Source: Candidatus Aenigmatarchaeota archaeon (GTDB lineage Archaea; Aenigmatarchaeota; Aenigmatarchaeia; CG10238-14). Taken from it: 32,897 bases of DNA. The notes beneath the pieces were generated by a model. That model saw nothing but the letters and a program-made list of their open reading frames with translations. It made no database searches and was not told where the DNA came from. A program made the position numbers and the translations under genes. Of the stretch, positions 2,436-10,958 are shown in pieces. The stretch is from the NCBI GenBank assembly GCA_014728985.1, contig WJKS01000066.1, positions 1 through 32,897 of the forward strand. The letters are read 5' to 3'. The first letter of the stretch is position 1; each line of letters starts with the position of its first letter.

Positions 2436-2499
2436 TTTTAAAATCGTTTTTATATATATCCATCCCAAAATAATTATTAGAAAAATCTAGGTGCTATTA

Positions 2500-2793
2500 A
2501 TGAGTAAAAAAGATGAACTCAGGGATTTGAAGAAGAAAATTGTGTATATATTGAAAAAGAATAATGTAAAAAAAGCAGGATTATTCGGATCTTTTGTCAC
2601 GGGTGAAGCTACAGAAAAAAGTGATATAGATATACTAATTGAATTCAAGAGAGGAAAGAGTTTACTTGATCTTATTGGCTTGGAAATGGAATTGGAAGAG
2701 TCCTTAAAAAGGGACGTAGATTTATTGACTTATAATTCTATCCATCCTTTGTTAAAGGATACTATTCTATCTGAAGAGGTAAGGATAATATGA
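2500..2793 (+). CDS. mntA: MNT-type minimal nucleotidyltransferase (MntA antitoxin family)
   Basis: GSF-x-D-x-D motif 'GLFGSFVTGEATEKSDIDILIEF'; overlaps the start of the downstream HEPN gene. The ORF track starts at a GTG (2491); ATG at 2500 is more likely. Confidence 0.9.
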   Translation: MSKKDELRDLKKKIVYILKKNNVKKAGLFGSFVTGEATEKSDIDILIEFKRGKSLLDLIGLEMELEESLKRDVDLLTYNSIHPLLKDTILSEEVRII

Positions 2794-3131
2794 AAAAAGA
2801 CCCTAAAATTTTCATTAAACACATTTTGGAAAACATAGAAAAGATTGAAAAGTATACTAAAGGAATTGATAAAGAGAAATTCCTAAAAGAAGAACAAATA
2901 CAGGATTTAGTCATAAGAAAATTGGAAATTATTGGCGAGGCGAGTAAAAATATACCGAAAAAATTCAGGGAAGAACACGAAGGGATTGAATGGGTTAAAA
3001 TAGCTGGATTAAGAGACAAACTAATCCATCATTATTTCGGCGTTGATTTAGAGCTAGTATTTGATCTAGTTAGAAAGAATATACCCGAACTTAAAATTAA
3101 AATTCAGAAAATCCTGAGAGAAATGGAGTAA
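2790..3131 (+). CDS. hepT: HEPN-domain toxin (HepT/DUF86 family)
   Basis: RX4HXY motif 'RDKLIHHY', DUF86-like 'IQDLVIRKLEIIGEASKNIP'; 4-nt overlap with mntA. Confidence 0.9.
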   Translation: MKKDPKIFIKHILENIEKIEKYTKGIDKEKFLKEEQIQDLVIRKLEIIGEASKNIPKKFREEHEGIEWVKIAGLRDKLIHHYFGVDLELVFDLVRKNIPELKIKIQKILREME

Positions 3132-3133
3132 TA

Positions 3134-3218
3134 ATTTATTATTGGGTCAATAAGATTATAATCCTCACAGGAAAATACACTGGCAATGTTACTATTTTTG
3201 CTAATGAGACTGAGTAGA
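3134..3218 (+). pseudogene. Remnant 3' end of a paralogue of the upstream surface gene
   Basis: Translates IYYWVNKIIILTGKYTGNVTIFANETE*, versus TYYWINTPIILAGKYTGNVTIFANETE* at the end of the 2..2434 CDS. Confidence 0.85.
3168..3218 (+). repeat. 51-bp direct repeat, copy 2 (downstream of hepT)
   Basis: Identical to 2385..2435. Confidence 0.95.
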
Positions 3219-3260
3219 CAATTTTATACCTTTAAGATAATAATTATTTGATAGGTTTGT

Positions 3261-3902
3261 ATGAAGTTTAAACTAATAATTTTCATATCGGTCTTAATTC
3301 CTATGATCTATTCGTTCAATTTTGGGACCGTTCCTAAGAATGATTACCAATCTGTCGAAGCAGGGGAAAGTACCGAATTCATAATTTTGCTTTGGAATCT
3401 AGGACAAAATTCCTATCCTGTTAATGTGAGATTACTAAACGATTTACCCGGTTGGGATATCATTGTCAGACCGCAAGAATTTGTTTTGAGTCCCACTCCT
3501 GTTGCTAAGCCTCCTTACACTGGTGGAGAATATTTTAAGGTCTCAGGAATGGGTATAGTAAAAACAGAAACTCTTAGATTGTTTGTAAAAACTCCAAAAA
3601 ACGTGGAACCAGGACTATATGATTTAGATATGGTTGCGATAGCCGGGGATTCAGATGAACAGGTATCTGTTCTTCAGGAGAGACAATTCAAGTTAAAACT
3701 CGAGGTAAAAGAAAAACCTACAGTATTTGAAAGAACTTATAGCTCCTTAAAATTGACTGGAGAGAAAATAAATGAGAGAGTTAAAAATGCTAGGAATTCC
3801 ATGACGGGAATGTTAACTGGTATAAACCTAAGTTCAAATTTACCCTTTTTCTTAGGTTTAATTTTAATTGTAATTGCGATCGCAATTGTTATAGTAAAAT
3901 AA
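3261..3902 (+). CDS. Secreted, C-terminally membrane-anchored NEW3-like beta-sandwich protein
   Basis: N-terminal signal peptide, 'NFGTVPKNDYQSVEAGES', C-terminal TM helix 'LPFFLGLILIVIAIAIVIVK'. Confidence 0.75.
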   Translation: MKFKLIIFISVLIPMIYSFNFGTVPKNDYQSVEAGESTEFIILLWNLGQNSYPVNVRLLNDLPGWDIIVRPQEFVLSPTPVAKPPYTGGEYFKVSGMGIVKTETLRLFVKTPKNVEPGLYDLDMVAIAGDSDEQVSVLQERQFKLKLEVKEKPTVFERTYSSLKLTGEKINERVKNARNSMTGMLTGINLSSNLPFFLGLILIVIAIAIVIVK

Positions 3903-3948: not shown

Positions 3949-4230
3949 ATGGATTATGATATACTCTCAAAAAAGCCTATTAAGTCATCCGATTTGAAAA
4001 TAATTGATCATGTAGGTATACTTTACGGTACTGTTAATGGTGAAAAACTTTGGGAAGTAGATAAAGTCGCTTGGGAAATCCTTAAAATGTGTGAGGGGAA
4101 TAAGACAGTAGATCAAATAATATGGAGTATATCCAAAAAATTCGAACTAGATATGGATGATGTTAAACCTATAGTAACGGCGGTTATGAAGGAATTGAAA
4201 AGAATAAATTTTATCAGATTTAAGAACTAG
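3949..4230 (+). CDS. PqqD-like (RRE-fold) small protein
   Basis: LWEVDKVAWEILKMCEGNKTVDQIIWSISKKFELDMDDVKPIVTAVMKEL is typical of the PqqD family. Confidence 0.75.
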   Translation: MDYDILSKKPIKSSDLKIIDHVGILYGTVNGEKLWEVDKVAWEILKMCEGNKTVDQIIWSISKKFELDMDDVKPIVTAVMKELKRINFIRFKN

Positions 4231-4454
4231 TCAATCTGTTTCTTTATTTTGTCTAATATTTCCTTTTCCTTTACCATCTCTACGAACCTTTTTTTTGCAT
4301 AGCAGAGTTTAGCTGCTCCTACTTTCCTTTGATAGACCCTTCCTTCACCGATTAATTCATGAATATATTTTGTAGCCGTGATTCTACTTAAACCTACCAT
4401 TTCAGATATTTTCTGAATTGTAAGGCCTTCTGGGTGTTTCTTAAGTATTCCCAA
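4227..4454 (-). CDS. Winged-helix/HTH transcriptional regulator
   Basis: HPEGLTIQKISEMVGLSRITATKYIHELIGEGRVYQRKVG; TTG start, because no in-frame ATG precedes it. Confidence 0.7.
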   Translation of the reverse strand: MGILKKHPEGLTIQKISEMVGLSRITATKYIHELIGEGRVYQRKVGAAKLCYAKKRFVEMVKEKEILDKIKKQID

Positions 4455-4629
4455 AATTCTTTCCTTTTGTTTATTTTCTATTTAAATCCCCCTCTGTTAT
4501 TATATTTGTTTAACATGAATATTAATATATTATAGTAAACAGTAATATTTAAATATAGTATATCTGCATAAATTATACATAAGTTTAATATGGAAAAGAA
4601 TCAAAATTAATATTGGAGGTAAAATAAAA

Positions 4630-5529
4630 ATGAAATCTGATTTGATGTTTCTGGGCTTGTTTCTACTTTTTGCTTTAACGGTAACTTTATTGCCAAATAC
4701 ATTAGCAATTCCGAGCGATAATGCTACTATAGATGTGGAAATAGGTTCAGTTGCTGAATTAAGGTTGAACACTACAGGTTTTACAGGTATAGACTTTGGT
4801 AGCGTTAACCCTGCGGGTAACAGCTCTGGAGTTTTAATAAGGGCACATAATGTAGGATCAACTACTCTAAGTGATCTTTATGCGATTGTTGATACAATGG
4901 AAAAGGGCGGAAGTAATCCCCGAGGAAGTGCTGGTTCTTCTACAGATTGGGCAGCAACCAATTTCTTGGCTTTAGCAAATGATACCTCCAGTCCAGAATA
5001 TTTTTATGTGGGAAAAATTGCATGGAATTATTCAACTGATGAGGATTCCAGTAATTTTACTTTAGATACTGCAGCTGATGCTTGGGGAGAGTACTGGGCC
5101 GGTGGTGATACAGATCCAGGTGATCATTGGTATTGGCAGTTAAATGGTTCAGTGGCTAACAATGACTGGTGTAATGAAAGTGAGGCGACTCTAAAGATTA
5201 ATAATGCAAGAGGAGATATGGATGTATCCAGTGGTACTTCAATGACAAATGAAGCTCAAGGAGAAGATTGGGCAGTTTTCACAGTAGGGTCTGGTCCTTG
5301 GACAGACTATTGTGTATACGCCTATTACAATTGTGAGAAAATATATATTACTAGATGGGATTTGAACTCAACCTTTGCGCCAGCATGTTCAAAGGAGGAT
5401 TATATACATCCACCGAATATGAGTCCTGGTAATTACTATGACTTCTATTTGAAAGAAATAATACCACCAGGAATACCTAGTGGTTCAGCAGCTCAGACAA
5501 ATCTTAGAATATATGCAAGTACAACTTAG
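4630..5529 (+). CDS. Secreted surface protein, possible major subunit (camelysin/TasA-like beta-sandwich?)
   Basis: Good SD (ggaggt), signal peptide, 'GIDFGSVNPAGNSSGVLIRAHNVGS', no C-terminal TM helix. Confidence 0.7.
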   Translation: MKSDLMFLGLFLLFALTVTLLPNTLAIPSDNATIDVEIGSVAELRLNTTGFTGIDFGSVNPAGNSSGVLIRAHNVGSTTLSDLYAIVDTMEKGGSNPRGSAGSSTDWAATNFLALANDTSSPEYFYVGKIAWNYSTDEDSSNFTLDTAADAWGEYWAGGDTDPGDHWYWQLNGSVANNDWCNESEATLKINNARGDMDVSSGTSMTNEAQGEDWAVFTVGSGPWTDYCVYAYYNCEKIYITRWDLNSTFAPACSKEDYIHPPNMSPGNYYDFYLKEIIPPGIPSGSAAQTNLRIYASTT

Positions 5530-5565
5530 ACAATTCTTTTATTTTCTTTTCTCCTATATTTGTTT

Positions 5566-6528
5566 ATGATAAAATACGTCAATTCATTTTTGGTTTATTT
5601 TATATTATCTCTAATTCTTTTACCTTCTTTAGTTAATTCAGTTTCAATTGGTATATCCCCTGGACATTTGAATCTGGGGGAAATTGAACCTGGGGACTCA
5701 AAGATAGTCAGATTTTATATTGTGACTTCGTCAGATGATTTATTTTTGGTTTCTCTTTCTCCAGTTAAATCAGTAGGTCTGGGGCTTTTTGAAAGAGAGG
5801 ATTACAAAAATCTTTTGAAGTTTTATTCAGAACAAGATCCTAGTCCTTGGGTAAATTTTATAGAGAACCCCATTGAATTACTGCCTCCCGAGGAAGATTA
5901 TGATAATACAGGAGGAGGCGCTTCACTAAGAGGGCTTAGAGAGATTAAATTTGTAATAAACGTACCTGAAAACGCTGAGCCTGGATATCATATAGGTGAA
6001 ATAACCATGTCACCTAAGATTGTACATGATGATAAGTCAGTATCTCTTGTTTCTGTTGTTCCTATGAAATATATTTTTAAGGTTACGGGAAATGCGGTTA
6101 GGAAAGGACAGATAATTGATGTAAAGTCTAATGGAATATATGATGGTAGACTTTGGTTGAAAGTTTTGTACAAAAATACAGGTACTGTTTCAGTTACAAT
6201 AGACGGAGGCGAAATAGATATTTTTGATAAGTATGGGAGATATCTAATGAGTACTGAGACTAGCCGTGGTTTTATTAAACCAGGGGAAACTAAAGAATTA
6301 AATTCCTTTGCTGATTATGGTTTGTTTGAAGAGGATTCATATAATGTAAATGCAAAAATTAGTTATTTAACTGGGGAAGTTGAGAAAGAGGGGACTATAG
6401 AAATACCAGAAATTTCAGAGATACCGACAGGAAAGGTTATTGAGGGGGAAAAAGAGAATAAATTTCCTGTTTGGTTAATAATACTTTTGATTATTATAAT
6501 TGTAACTCTGGTAATAATTTTCAAGTAA
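5566..6528 (+). CDS. Membrane-anchored DUF916/WxL-interacting-like beta-sandwich protein
   Basis: Signal peptide, 'VSIGISPGHLNLGEIEPGDSKIVRFYI', C-terminal TM helix 'FPVWLIILLIIIIVTLVIIFK'. Confidence 0.7.
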   Translation: MIKYVNSFLVYFILSLILLPSLVNSVSIGISPGHLNLGEIEPGDSKIVRFYIVTSSDDLFLVSLSPVKSVGLGLFEREDYKNLLKFYSEQDPSPWVNFIENPIELLPPEEDYDNTGGGASLRGLREIKFVINVPENAEPGYHIGEITMSPKIVHDDKSVSLVSVVPMKYIFKVTGNAVRKGQIIDVKSNGIYDGRLWLKVLYKNTGTVSVTIDGGEIDIFDKYGRYLMSTETSRGFIKPGETKELNSFADYGLFEEDSYNVNAKISYLTGEVEKEGTIEIPEISEIPTGKVIEGEKENKFPVWLIILLIIIIVTLVIIFK

Positions 6529-6536
6529 GTGATTGA

Positions 6537-7091
6537 ATGAAAGAGAAAAGGGTTTTGGTAATAAATCTGAAAAAGACAATTCTTATTTTATCTTTAACCC
6601 TTGTTGTAATTTTGTTTCTGATTCAGATGACTTCCAGGTTAGACATAGAACCTTCCGAGAAGTTGAATGGGAGTACCAATATATTTGAACAGAGGGAGAA
6701 CTATTTCTTCAGTTATGAGATTATTAGATATCATTCAAGGGTTAATATTTCAGAAATAACTAATATAACAACAAGAGATATCGGTATAAACGCTGATAAA
6801 ACAAATCTGCATCTCGGAAGAATTCCAAGGGGTTCCTCGAGTAAAAAAACTATTAATTTAACCAATAATCAAGGAAGGCCTTATAGGATTAAGTTTTTAG
6901 TATTTGGGAACATAAGTGAATTAATTAGGCTGGAAGATAGCATTGTGATTAAGCCTGGGGAAAATGTAGAATACTCCGTTATAGCTGAGACAGCTGAAAG
7001 TACTCCAATTGGCATGTATAGTGGTGAGATAGATTTGGTAATAGTTAAACCAAAAAACTTTATATCAAAGGCTATTCAATGGGTGATTTAG
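6537..7091 (+). CDS. N-terminally anchored beta-sandwich protein
   Basis: N-terminal TM helix 'TILILSLTLVVILFLIQM', 'LHLGRIPRGSSSKKTINLTN'. Confidence 0.65.
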   Translation: MKEKRVLVINLKKTILILSLTLVVILFLIQMTSRLDIEPSEKLNGSTNIFEQRENYFFSYEIIRYHSRVNISEITNITTRDIGINADKTNLHLGRIPRGSSSKKTINLTNNQGRPYRIKFLVFGNISELIRLEDSIVIKPGENVEYSVIAETAESTPIGMYSGEIDLVIVKPKNFISKAIQWVI

Positions 7092-7097
7092 ATTAGG

Positions 7098-7844
7098 TTG
7101 TTGAAACGGATTTTAATTCTAATATTGGTTTTACCGATAGTTTATGCACCTTCAGTCAATTTAGGTATATCAAAAGCTTTGATCGTGAATTTAGCTGAAA
7201 TGAATTACGAATCTCACCTTGACAACGAGCCACTTGAATTAAATTTCATTTTTGTTAATTCTGGAAATATCCCCTTTAAATCTAGAGGAAGGTTAGATAT
7301 TTTTGATGGTACTAGGAAGATTTTTACTGGTTGGAGTGAAGAGACAATACTCAGGACAGGGCAGATAAGGAGAATTCCAATTTATTGGTTTCCATATAGC
7401 ACAGAAGGAAAATTTAGGGGAGTTTTGAAAATTTATTATGGTACTGAAGTAATGGAGGGAGGAGAGTTTGAGTTTGAAGTTGTTAACACTGAAATCCCAG
7501 AGAAGATAATAAACATAACCAAACTTAGGACCTATGATAATGAGATGGTTCTAACCTTGAGTAGTCATAAGCACCTTGAAGATGTTATTATAATACCTGT
7601 AGATTACCCTCCTGGATGGTTTTTTGAGCAAAAGGGAATTGGGAAATTGAATGGTTCTAAAAAAATTGAATTAATTTACGAACCCAGTTTTTGGGAACCA
7701 GGTAATGAAATCAAATTTCAAGTGGTAACAAAGGATGGAAAATATTATGGTGAGAAAACGTTCAAAATTGAGAAAGAGGGGATCCTAAGTAGATTTATTT
7801 ACTATTCCTCGAAGAGAATAGAGAGATTTTTCAAAAATTTATAA
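7098..7844 (+). CDS. Secreted beta-sandwich (CARDB/NEW3-like) protein
   Basis: Signal peptide 'LKRILILILVLPIVYA', beta-rich repeats; tight spacing to flanking genes. Confidence 0.65.
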   Translation: MLKRILILILVLPIVYAPSVNLGISKALIVNLAEMNYESHLDNEPLELNFIFVNSGNIPFKSRGRLDIFDGTRKIFTGWSEETILRTGQIRRIPIYWFPYSTEGKFRGVLKIYYGTEVMEGGEFEFEVVNTEIPEKIINITKLRTYDNEMVLTLSSHKHLEDVIIIPVDYPPGWFFEQKGIGKLNGSKKIELIYEPSFWEPGNEIKFQVVTKDGKYYGEKTFKIEKEGILSRFIYYSSKRIERFFKNL

Positions 7845-7869
7845 TGTCAGAAAATCAAATCTAATATAT

Positions 7870-8616
7870 ATGTATCCAAGAGTAATTGGTGTAATCTCTG
7901 GAAAAGGAGGTGTAGGAAAAACTACCACTGTTCTAAATCTTTCTGCGGCCTTGAATGAGATGAACAAGAATGTTGTTGCTATTGATGCTGACGTTAAGAT
8001 GTCAGGCCTCGCACTACAATTAGGGATGTATTATTTTCCTGTAACATTAAATGACGTACTCAAGGACATAGAAGATCTTTATAGGGCTGTATATATACAT
8101 TCATCCGGGTTAAGGGTAATACCGGCCTCAATTTGTCTTGAAGATTGTAATATCTCCAATCTTAAGAAAATCTTAAATCATACTTCAATGCAGAACAATA
8201 TGATTATTGTTGACGGTCCTCCAGGCCTTGAAAAAAATGCATTATCGGTTATGGAATCCTGTAAGAGGATATTGGTGGTTACAGAACCAGAGTTACCTGC
8301 AATAACTGATGTGATGAAAATAGTTAACCTATGTAGAGAAAGGGAAGTCAAGTTAATTGGGGTTGTGATCAACAAATACAGGAAAGGTAGAGAGCAAATC
8401 ACTAAGGAAGAGATTGAATCAACTCTTCAGGTCCCAATAATTGGTGTGATTCCTGAGGATAAAAATGTCAAGAAAAGCGTTTTCAGAAAAAAACCAATCG
8501 TATTGGCTAAGCCATATTCACCTGCCTCAGTGGCTTACAAGAAAATTGCGGCAAGATTAGTGGGTGAAAAATACGAAGAGGAGAACATAATAAAAAGATT
8601 AGTAGGAAGGTTTTAA
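7870..8616 (+). CDS. minD: MinD/ParA-family P-loop ATPase
   Basis: Deviant Walker A 'ISGKGGVGKTTTVLNLS', 'VVAIDADVKMSGLALQLG', 'MIIVDGPPGL'; C-terminal 'ENIIKRLVGRF' resembles a membrane-targeting amphipathic helix. Confidence 0.92.
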   Translation: MYPRVIGVISGKGGVGKTTTVLNLSAALNEMNKNVVAIDADVKMSGLALQLGMYYFPVTLNDVLKDIEDLYRAVYIHSSGLRVIPASICLEDCNISNLKKILNHTSMQNNMIIVDGPPGLEKNALSVMESCKRILVVTEPELPAITDVMKIVNLCREREVKLIGVVINKYRKGREQITKEEIESTLQVPIIGVIPEDKNVKKSVFRKKPIVLAKPYSPASVAYKKIAARLVGEKYEEENIIKRLVGRF

Positions 8617-8618
8617 AA

Positions 8619-10958
8619 ATGAGGAAATTTTTACTCACATTAACACTTCTAACATTAACAGTAGGTATTGCGAATTCAACTCCTGATTTATCAGTTGTGG
8701 TTGAACCAGATAATAATCTATGGGTAGGTGAAGAATTGAATATTTCCTTAACTTGTCTGGATAATAATCCAAACGCTACTATTGAATCTGCTTATCTTAA
8801 TGTTACTGGTCCCGGGGACTTTTTTGTGTACTATGATATGGAGGAGAATTCCTATGGGAGTTATTCTAAGTATATAGATGATTTTAATCAGGTTGGGGAA
8901 TATGATGTGAATATTTATTGTGAGAATAATCTAACTGAGATTTCAAACGAAGAGATTAATGTCAAAGTATCAGAATTTACTGTGGATATAGTAGAGATGA
9001 ATCCTGACCCTGCTTATATTGGTGATGAGTTAGAACTGGGAATTGCCACAAAAATAGACGGAGAACCCCATCATTATCAGGGAATTAACTTTACCGTAAA
9101 AATCGGAAATATTGAGGAGAGTTTTGACACTTCAGTTCCCTACCGGAATGGTATGTGGGAGATTAATATTGAGCCACCAGAATCGATAGGAACTCATGAT
9201 GTCTCTGTTCAGGCTGATTATGATAGAACTACAGCTTACTCTGAGGGTGAAATAGAAGTTAAGTCACCATTACAATTTGAACTGGTAGATATTGATAAAA
9301 CTTGGATAAAAGAAGATGATAATATCACGCTTACATTTCGAAATTCTTTCAAGGGCGAACCCTTTTATCTAACTAAAAATAATCTTAATGTTAGAATAGA
9401 TGGTTATAATTGCGAAATACTTGAAACTTCACGGGGAGGAAGTTATTCTTATGTTAAGGTAGATACCCCTGATCTTTCTTCGGGGACTTATGATTTAAGG
9501 ATAGAATTAAACTATAATAATGAATGGATAGGGAAGGCGTCTGATAAAATAAGCTATGTAGTTCCAGTAATTGGTGAAATTGTTAACCCCAAAGATAAGG
9601 CGATAAGTACGACAATAACATTTGAGAAAGGAGATTTGAAAAACTCTATTGGAACTGATGGAAAAGGTGCTTACTCCTCGGAAATACCTCGAGGTACTTA
9701 TGATATTGAATTAGATTTCCCTCGCTCAAATTTATTATTAGAGGATGTTGAGATAAAAAGTTTTGAAGATCCTATAAGGTATGATGAAATTACTTCTGGT
9801 TTTGAGCTAGAAGGAATAGGTGTTAATGCTATTTTCGTTTATGAGGTCGCCTTGGATTATGATGAGGCTCATCTGGAAATGACTTATGATGACAGCCTGG
9901 TCTCCAACGAGGAAAGGATAACGGTTTATAGATGTCAAAAATGGAATTTTGGTGCAAGAGTATGTAACGGAGATTGGAAAGAAGTTACCGCAGATATAGA
10001 TACAATTAGAAATGAGGTTAGTATTGATACTATCACATTGTCAGCATTTCTGATTGGTTATAAGAAAGAGATGATAATTGATGCCAATATTGAAAAAGAT
10101 AACTACTTTTTGGAGGATATAGTGAAAGTTCTTGGTATAGTTGAAGACGAAAACCAAAGAGCGATAGAAGGTGTTAAGGTAAATGGAGAGATAAGGGGAA
10201 CAGAAATAACTTTTACCGCTGAGACCGATAGTGGTGGGGTATTTACCAAAGAATTTCAAGGTCCTTCTACTGAGGGGAAACATGATTTGATACTTACCGC
10301 GGAAAAAGCGCCTTATGATGACGTTGATCAGACATTAGAGTTGGAAATGATTAGAAGTAAAAAACTAACTTTAACAGTCCCTAATAGTTTGGAATTGAGG
10401 GCGGGAGATAGTGCAAATACGGAATTTCTGTTAAATAATATCGGTCAGACCGATTTTTACGATCTTACTATTACCCTGAATGGAATCTCAACAGACTTCT
10501 ACATCCTAGGATTTACTGATATTGACAAGATAGAAGCAGGAGAAGAAAAGAGAGTACCGATTTCATTTAATCTCTCTAATTCTGTGGTTGAGGGCAGTTA
10601 CCCTGGCACAGTGAGGGTAAGAGGAGAAGATGTTGATTTGGAGGAAAGTTTTACACTTAAGGTTCAAAGCAAAGAGACCACAGAGGTTGAGGAATCTAAA
10701 TCAAAATTCCCATCTGCCAATATAGTGATCCCTAATTTTTCCTGGGAAACATTAGCTGTCTCAGTTTTTGGTGTTTTCTCAATAGGTGGTGCGATCTGGT
10801 TTAAAAAGAAAAAACAAAAACCAGGTAGAGAAAGGGAAGATGTCAAAAATATACTTTTAAACATCAAGAGTGAGGTAGAAAAAAATAAAAAACCTGTGAA
10901 GGTTAAGAAAAAGAACAAGAAAGATAAATCTGATGATTCTGTCTATTACGCAAGTTAA
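8619..10958 (+). CDS. Large surface protein with multiple beta-sandwich domains, TM helix and Lys-rich cytoplasmic tail
   Basis: Signal peptide, CARDB/NEW3-like 'LELRAGDSANTEFLLNNIGQTDFYDLTITLNG', TM 'LAVSVFGVFSIGGAIWF' followed by a basic tail 'KKKKQKPGRERED...KVKKKNKKDKS'. Confidence 0.8.
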   Translation: MRKFLLTLTLLTLTVGIANSTPDLSVVVEPDNNLWVGEELNISLTCLDNNPNATIESAYLNVTGPGDFFVYYDMEENSYGSYSKYIDDFNQVGEYDVNIYCENNLTEISNEEINVKVSEFTVDIVEMNPDPAYIGDELELGIATKIDGEPHHYQGINFTVKIGNIEESFDTSVPYRNGMWEINIEPPESIGTHDVSVQADYDRTTAYSEGEIEVKSPLQFELVDIDKTWIKEDDNITLTFRNSFKGEPFYLTKNNLNVRIDGYNCEILETSRGGSYSYVKVDTPDLSSGTYDLRIELNYNNEWIGKASDKISYVVPVIGEIVNPKDKAISTTITFEKGDLKNSIGTDGKGAYSSEIPRGTYDIELDFPRSNLLLEDVEIKSFEDPIRYDEITSGFELEGIGVNAIFVYEVALDYDEAHLEMTYDDSLVSNEERITVYRCQKWNFGARVCNGDWKEVTADIDTIRNEVSIDTITLSAFLIGYKKEMIIDANIEKDNYFLEDIVKVLGIVEDENQRAIEGVKVNGEIRGTEITFTAETDSGGVFTKEFQGPSTEGKHDLILTAEKAPYDDVDQTLELEMIRSKKLTLTVPNSLELRAGDSANTEFLLNNIGQTDFYDLTITLNGISTDFYILGFTDIDKIEAGEEKRVPISFNLSNSVVEGSYPGTVRVRGEDVDLEESFTLKVQSKETTEVEESKSKFPSANIVIPNFSWETLAVSVFGVFSIGGAIWFKKKKQKPGREREDVKNILLNIKSEVEKNKKPVKVKKKNKKDKSDDSVYYAS

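Follow-up and report, generated by a model that had tools for sequence, protein, structure and literature searches.

What is a MinD-type ATPase doing amid a run of genes for exported and membrane-anchored proteins, and is its position there more than coincidence? The question is raised by a contig from a Candidatus Aenigmatarchaeota archaeon (WJKS01000066.1, assembly GCA_014728985.1), all 32,897 nucleotides (nt) of which are called the window here; it is contig C49 of a 1.0-Mb genome that is 82% complete. Six + strand open reading frames (ORFs), p1 to p6, span positions 4630-10958 with intergenic gaps of 30, 8, 6, 25, and 2 nt in order, so that the tight same-strand spacing reported in the initial annotation is borne out (gaps of 2 to 30 nt). 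With lengths in amino acids (aa), they code for a secreted subunit with a signal peptide and no anchor (p1, 4630-5529, 299 aa), a tandem immunoglobulin (Ig)-like protein with a C-terminal transmembrane helix (p2, 5560-6528, 322 aa), an N-anchored protein with a single ASH/HYDIN-type Ig domain (p3, 6537-7091, 184 aa), an exported two-domain sandwich protein (p4, 7098-7844, 248 aa), an archaeal MinD ATPase of the TIGR01969 family (p5, 7870-8616, 248 aa), and a multidomain transmembrane protein adjoining MinD (p6, 8619-10958, 779 aa). All six are judged to be real genes, since their homologs occur in conserved order across the phylum, and the topology first proposed for p1 to p4 and p6 holds in outline under signal peptide and transmembrane analysis. 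A Pfam and NCBIfam scan of the six proteins gives MinD as the sole family above cutoff. The components, their topology, their conserved order, and the specific pairing of MinD with p6 are the established part of this system.

A dedicated MinD beside p6

The MinD-like ATPase recognized in the initial annotation is a genuine archaeal MinD: p5 scores 235.3 bits against the archaeal MinD model TIGR01969 (curated cutoff, 201.75), and its motifs are intact (GKGGVGKT at 11, DAD at 39, and IIVDGPPG at 112), with the deviant Walker A and the switch I and II aspartates made up of residues that are invariant in the alignment. To place it in context, p2 was searched across 156 genomes of the phylum Aenigmatarchaeota, and the surroundings of the matches were mapped gene by gene. 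Strong matches (E < 1e-40) are present at 36 places in 35 of the 156 genomes; p2, p3, and p4 are contiguous, in the same order and on the same strand, in 31 loci, and p1 is near p2 in 20, with tandem p1 copies in several, although these loci share descent and should not be counted as independent events.

The survey supports MinD as a dedicated, phylum-wide neighbor of p6. Pairing, defined as a same-strand MinD gene that adjoins a full-length p6 at a distance of no more than 50 nt, is present in 22 of the 25 loci with a full-length p6, from about 12 families. A later p6 search supplied hold-out loci unused before, ten of which are testable because the contig includes the region 5' of p6; MinD is directly upstream of p6 in nine of these ten, mostly with 4-nt overlaps, for a combined 31 of 35 testable loci. 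The initial annotation had staked its proposal on synteny of MinD with the sandwich proteins in related genomes, and the association survived both rounds of this test. Nor is minD set apart from its neighbors, with 25 nt to p4 and 2 nt to p6 in the window and 4-nt overlaps in many relatives. The p5-p6 pair is also kept where p2-p3-p4 is divergent (L112, L117, L119, and L127), and both operons of the window's genome (the second is L030) carry it. Both MinD-p6 and p6-MinD orders occur, with MinD-p6-MinD in G028, G035, and G041, and these two gene orders, together with several rearrangements, suggest that the pairing has been maintained rather than inherited as one frozen block.

We regard it as highly improbable that an ordinary MinD with a chromosomal or housekeeping role lies beside surface genes here by chance. 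MinD genes are numerous in these genomes, often 2 to 5 each, and four p6 loci are without an adjoining MinD, as might be expected of a chance neighbor, but the synteny at 31 of 35 p6 loci contradicts this and has no parallel among other MinDs. In a control set of 66 MinDs, almost all of them encoded at other places in these genomes, 10 adjoin a C-anchored surface protein, compared with a background of 15 of 112 genes of that type; there is therefore no general MinD enrichment, and the pairing is specific to the p6 family. In a tree of 60 MinD sequences, moreover, the window MinD belongs to a clade of eight p6-linked MinDs (support 100/99) and is apart from the C18, C97, and C16 copies of its own genome. 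MinDs that precede p6 mostly belong to a single group (support 86/97; 20 of 23 rows), and those that follow p6 belong to another, which is linked to the adhesin module described below. A general pairing of Aenigmatarchaeal MinDs with C-anchored surface proteins, which L086, L103, and L104 had suggested, is ruled out by the 66-MinD control.

The p6 tail and a proposed role for MinD

The p6 protein has a signal peptide and a C-terminal transmembrane helix with a short cytoplasmic tail; the helix is weak by hydropathy in the window copy and clear in homologs, and carboxypeptidase-regulatory-like and Ig-like domains are seen below cutoff. The initial annotation described one transmembrane helix and a very basic tail that could serve as the cytoplasmic contact. 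The helix stands, and p6 is a plausible contact, but the basic tail varies (p6 of G004, G008, and G010 stops a few residues past the helix), and the conserved feature is instead a short amphipathic stretch that follows the pattern I-K-N-L-L-x-x-I-K-x-E-I, about 7 to 60 residues after the transmembrane helix. In the window it reads VKNILLNIKSEV (10842-10877, + strand) and is the proposed MinD contact. The motif is common to most of the 25 p6 tails, with other examples being IKNLLLDIRREI, LLIGIKSEI, and IVSLLNEMRKEI, and it recurs in most of the hold-out tails, as in GIMFNIKNEIEK and MLADIKKEIYS; a strict form of the pattern matches 13 of the 25 tails, compared with 0.2 in shuffled tails. This predicted helix is plausibly the best candidate for the contact with MinD. 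A similar arrangement is seen in Wzz/CpsC-CpsD (BY-kinase) pairs, where a membrane protein is bound at its short cytoplasmic tail by a MinD-fold ATPase, although unlike the BY-kinases (CpsD/Wzc) the MinDs here have no C-terminal tyrosine cluster (0 to 2 Tyr in the last 20 residues) and are not accompanied by polysaccharide genes.

We favor, at what we judge to be an even chance, a dedicated Aenigmatarchaeota surface adhesion apparatus in which p6, as transmembrane scaffold, would pair with a dedicated MinD that gathers or counts complexes. From family knowledge, p1 would be exported by Sec as the main extracellular subunit and held, as a filament, a coat, or single complexes, by the membrane-anchored Ig proteins p2 to p4, and p6, which spans the membrane, would be the scaffold of the apparatus. 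MinD would sit on the membrane through a basic-amphipathic C terminus, the p6 cytoplasmic helix would bind the ATP-dimer of MinD at the predicted contact, and ATP hydrolysis would lead MinD to gather or release p6, thereby fixing the location or number of complexes. Positioning by MinD is something that we infer, as are filament formation and transcriptional feedback.

Several observations weigh against such an apparatus. The C termini of the cluster MinDs are basic-amphipathic (for example, EENIIKRLVGRF and LIFKRIFKGIKK) but mostly not significantly so relative to shuffled sequences; the cluster MinDs are not monophyletic, with six label changes in the 60-sequence tree; and the p6 genes of G001 (same genus, 97% complete), G055, G132, and G022 have no directly adjoining MinD, such that MinD may be dispensable there or act in trans. 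A structure model of p1 built from two sequences has a predicted local distance difference test (pLDDT) value of 45, too low for use, and regulation has to be taken seriously as an alternative in view of the winged-helix genes that adjoin MinD and p6 or are fused to them, as discussed below.

Precedent for such a MinD role comes from Haloferax: deletion of MinD2 impairs archaella assembly, cell shape, and motility (PMC11588486), MinD4 sets the position of the motility machinery according to Nussbaum 2020 as cited in PMC7613921, and the division ring is placed by none of its MinD proteins (PMC7613921). The placement ATPases of other surface machines, namely bacterial FlhG and TadZ/CpaE and Haloferax MinD4 and MinD2, all resemble p5 in being deviant-Walker MinD ATPases tied to an envelope machine, but p5 differs in sharing an operon with non-type-IV sandwich-fold surface proteins and in being paired with one transmembrane scaffold; archaella, cell shape, and chemosensory arrays are what the Haloferax MinDs affect. 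No paper on such a cluster was found in the open-access literature, subscription papers being outside the search.

The exported subunit and its anchored partners

The p1 protein has four conserved cysteines and about 10 NxS/T sites, and the p1 N termini resemble, by eye, Sec signal peptides with Ala-x-Ala-type sites. There is no match to p1 in Pfam, NCBIfam, or PDB, the TasA/camelysin family (Pfam and PDB) included, and both p1 and p2 are absent from scans of viral contigs. Upstream of p1, inspection by eye identifies a TATA-like sequence, TTTAAATATAG, and a Shine-Dalgarno GGAGG (4548-4619, + strand). Relatives have 1 to 3 tandem p1 copies (L037, L110, L117, L119, and L124), and in G006, G028, G020, and G060 p1 is on its own transcription unit or divergent. 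Because p1 is often separate or divergent and the p1-p2 gap is T-rich, one transcript for all six genes is not certain; the six-gene operon of the initial annotation holds as a tight unit for p2 to p6, but cotranscription of p1 is uncertain, and further genes belong to the system. The T-rich stretch itself, TTCTTTTATTTTCTTTTCTCC (5530-5559), is directly 3' of p1 and is a possible archaeal oligo-T terminator, which could raise p1 abundance above that of the remaining genes.

Judged by its signals and gene content, the cluster is not a type IV pilus: the p1 signal is Sec-like by eye and not class III, and the cluster has no dedicated PilB-type ATPase, T2SSE ATPases being elsewhere in these genomes. 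A possible analogy is with archaeal filaments made without the type IV machinery (Pyrobaculum bundling pili, Sulfolobus threads, and Methanothermobacter Mth60 fimbriae), which likewise have Sec-type exported non-type-IV subunits and adjacent paralogous subunits. Donor strands join the subunits of threads and bundling pili, although p1 has no sequence match to such filaments. In the Mth60 and thread papers searched, MinD is unmentioned for the Mth60 cluster (0 occurrences), no assembly factor is assigned for the thread cluster, and no MinD-type partner is described.

The C-terminal transmembrane helix of p2 is followed by a tail of 2 to 10 aa, and the AlphaFold model, in which the second domain has pLDDT values of 80 to 90 and only that second Ig domain is reliable, indicates a tandem Ig protein. 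A likeness of p2 to DUF916/WxL-interacting proteins (WxLIPs) had been noted at the outset. The C-terminal anchor and Ig layout agree with it, but the WxLIP Pfam families (PF06030/PF11797) are found in 1 of 16 p2 members with E values of 0.03 and 0.11, short of membership, and Foldseek places the model among Ig proteins, including the WxLIP structures 9i1y and 9i25, with low template-modeling scores and low confidence. As just one domain of the model is reliable, this fold match is a lead only. With its WxLIP/DUF916-like layout, p2 is nonetheless a candidate partner or anchor for p1. In p3, the transmembrane helix is at residues 14-32 and the Ig domain faces outside; the p3 profile matches HYDIN chains (E 6e-9), and ASH/HYDIN Pfam domains are found in p3 members (best E 2e-8). 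The p4 protein has a signal peptide and a basic C-terminal helix, in place of which homologs of several families have a true C-terminal transmembrane helix, and its profile is similar to p2 and to a p6-like protein of the second module described below.

These features invite comparison with the WxL/WxLIP (DUF916-DUF3324) clusters of Firmicutes, which also have a small secreted subunit, a large adhesin with a conserved C-terminal domain, and a C-anchored double-Ig protein (PMC10599100, PMC9772566). The cluster would then be an archaeal functional counterpart that forms an adhesive coat and not a filament, with MinD as a secondary add-on, and we consider this unlikely. Its layout does equal that of a small WxL, a large WxL, and a C-anchored double-Ig WxLIP (PMC10599100), and the weak Pfam and Foldseek matches of p2 are in its favor, as is p0, a short p2 relative 3' of a LamG adhesin (see below). 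In this reading, the roles of small and large subunit would go to p1 and the LamG adhesin, respectively, and p2 and p0 would be their strand-donating anchors. There is no significant sequence match between the two kinds of cluster, neither p1 nor the adhesin has a Pfam WxL match, and p3, p4, p6, and MinD are without a counterpart in WxL loci as described. The archaea are also without peptidoglycan, the proposed ligand of WxL domains, and hhalign of p1 with the adhesin C-terminal domain gives only 16%, on which we do not claim that the two are homologous.

Adhesin module, second operon, and winged-helix genes

By its recurrent gene neighborhoods, the system exceeds six genes: a LamG adhesin, p0, two small winged-helix genes, and a paralogous module that has a MinD of its own also belong to it. 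The left edge of the window carries the adhesin and p0 of this second module. The adhesin (23-2434, + strand), which begins at the contig edge, has a LamG/ConA-like lectin domain (PF13385, E 3e-18), repeats, and a conserved C-terminal domain, and p0 (3261-3902, + strand) is a C-anchored small sandwich protein that counts as the partner of the adhesin and is a shorter relative of p2 (96% by hhalign). A LamG-type adhesin is near p2 in 10 loci, its C-terminal domain is conserved in 10 loci of the system, and p0 is directly 3' of the adhesin in L032, L037, L041, L042, L110, L111, L118, and L123. In several genomes, the operon runs on into the second module, which contains a MinD, a LamG adhesin, p0, and a p6-like protein (98% by hhalign to both p6 and p4), often with another MinD after it. 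The adhesin and p0, elsewhere accompanied by their own MinD and p6-like protein, would form a parallel binding module, with the adhesin for carbohydrate binding. A second, diverged operon copy in the window's genome (contig C57, L030) contains p2, p3, p4, a 615-aa CBM96 protein, MinD, and p6, the additional CBM96-containing protein (L030:8733-10580) being between p4 and MinD.

Winged-helix gene A (4227-4475, - strand; hidden Markov model E 2e-42, start codon unsure) is located between a PqqD-like gene and p1, and it is at the same place beside p1 in L027, L031, L032, and L041. A second winged-helix gene (70 aa) immediately precedes MinD or p6 in seven loci, often with an overlap, and is fused to the MinD N terminus in L030 and to the p6 N terminus in G020; in total, a winged-helix partner is adjoining or fused in 9 loci. 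These fusions make a functional link among MinD, p6, and a DNA-binding protein likely. MinD-p6 could then be mainly a transcriptional feedback switch, in which p6 senses outside assembly or attachment, MinD relays the signal, and the winged helix tunes expression of p1 and the operon, much as FlhG/FleN acts with flagellar regulators. The seven loci, the two fusions, and the gene flanking p1 in the window and four other loci all fit such a switch, but in the window operon and in most families MinD-p6 is retained with no winged helix next to MinD, and we regard the switch as doubtful. It is possible, and we propose it only tentatively, that the phylum has a non-type-IV surface apparatus in which scaffold, MinD, and winged helix constitute one circuit coupling outside assembly or host attachment to placement and transcription, with parallel paralogous modules that each have their own MinD.

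Other features of these loci are noted here. The PqqD-like gene (3949-4230, + strand) codes for a 93-aa protein (PF05402, E 3.5e-8); four genomes (the window, L027:1136-1402, L031:8893-9174, and L032:8490-8774) have it next to both p1 and the winged-helix gene. Between the adhesin and p0 (2491-3225) is a two-gene cassette that reads as a 100-aa MNT nucleotidyltransferase-like and a 113-aa HEPN-like protein; after it, the terminal 83 nt of the adhesin gene recur in a second copy (87% identical), and the cassette looks inserted with duplication of the adhesin gene end. The p6-like proteins of the second module have a common tail motif, RPK(I/L)LxR, beside other MinD clades (L086, L103, L110:12351-13655, and L118:1759-2982). 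Large C-anchored surface proteins with a different conserved cytoplasmic tail, LLEKEFKEGIISENAYNELRKKNVEKL-like and reminiscent of SHOCT domains, sometimes adjoin MinD; such tails are in L104, L139, L098, L041:3-4211, L118:11543-17398, and L125:619-6474.

This apparently undescribed conserved gene set, from a little-known archaeal phylum, joins secreted sandwich-fold proteins to their own MinD-type ATPase, suggesting active placement or regulation, by these tiny archaea, of an adhesive structure on their surface. Archaea have many MinD proteins, most of them without an assigned cargo, and a MinD-scaffold pair with a candidate contact helix makes the cargo question testable. The cluster also supplies candidate attachment proteins for a phylum whose cell surface has very little literature.

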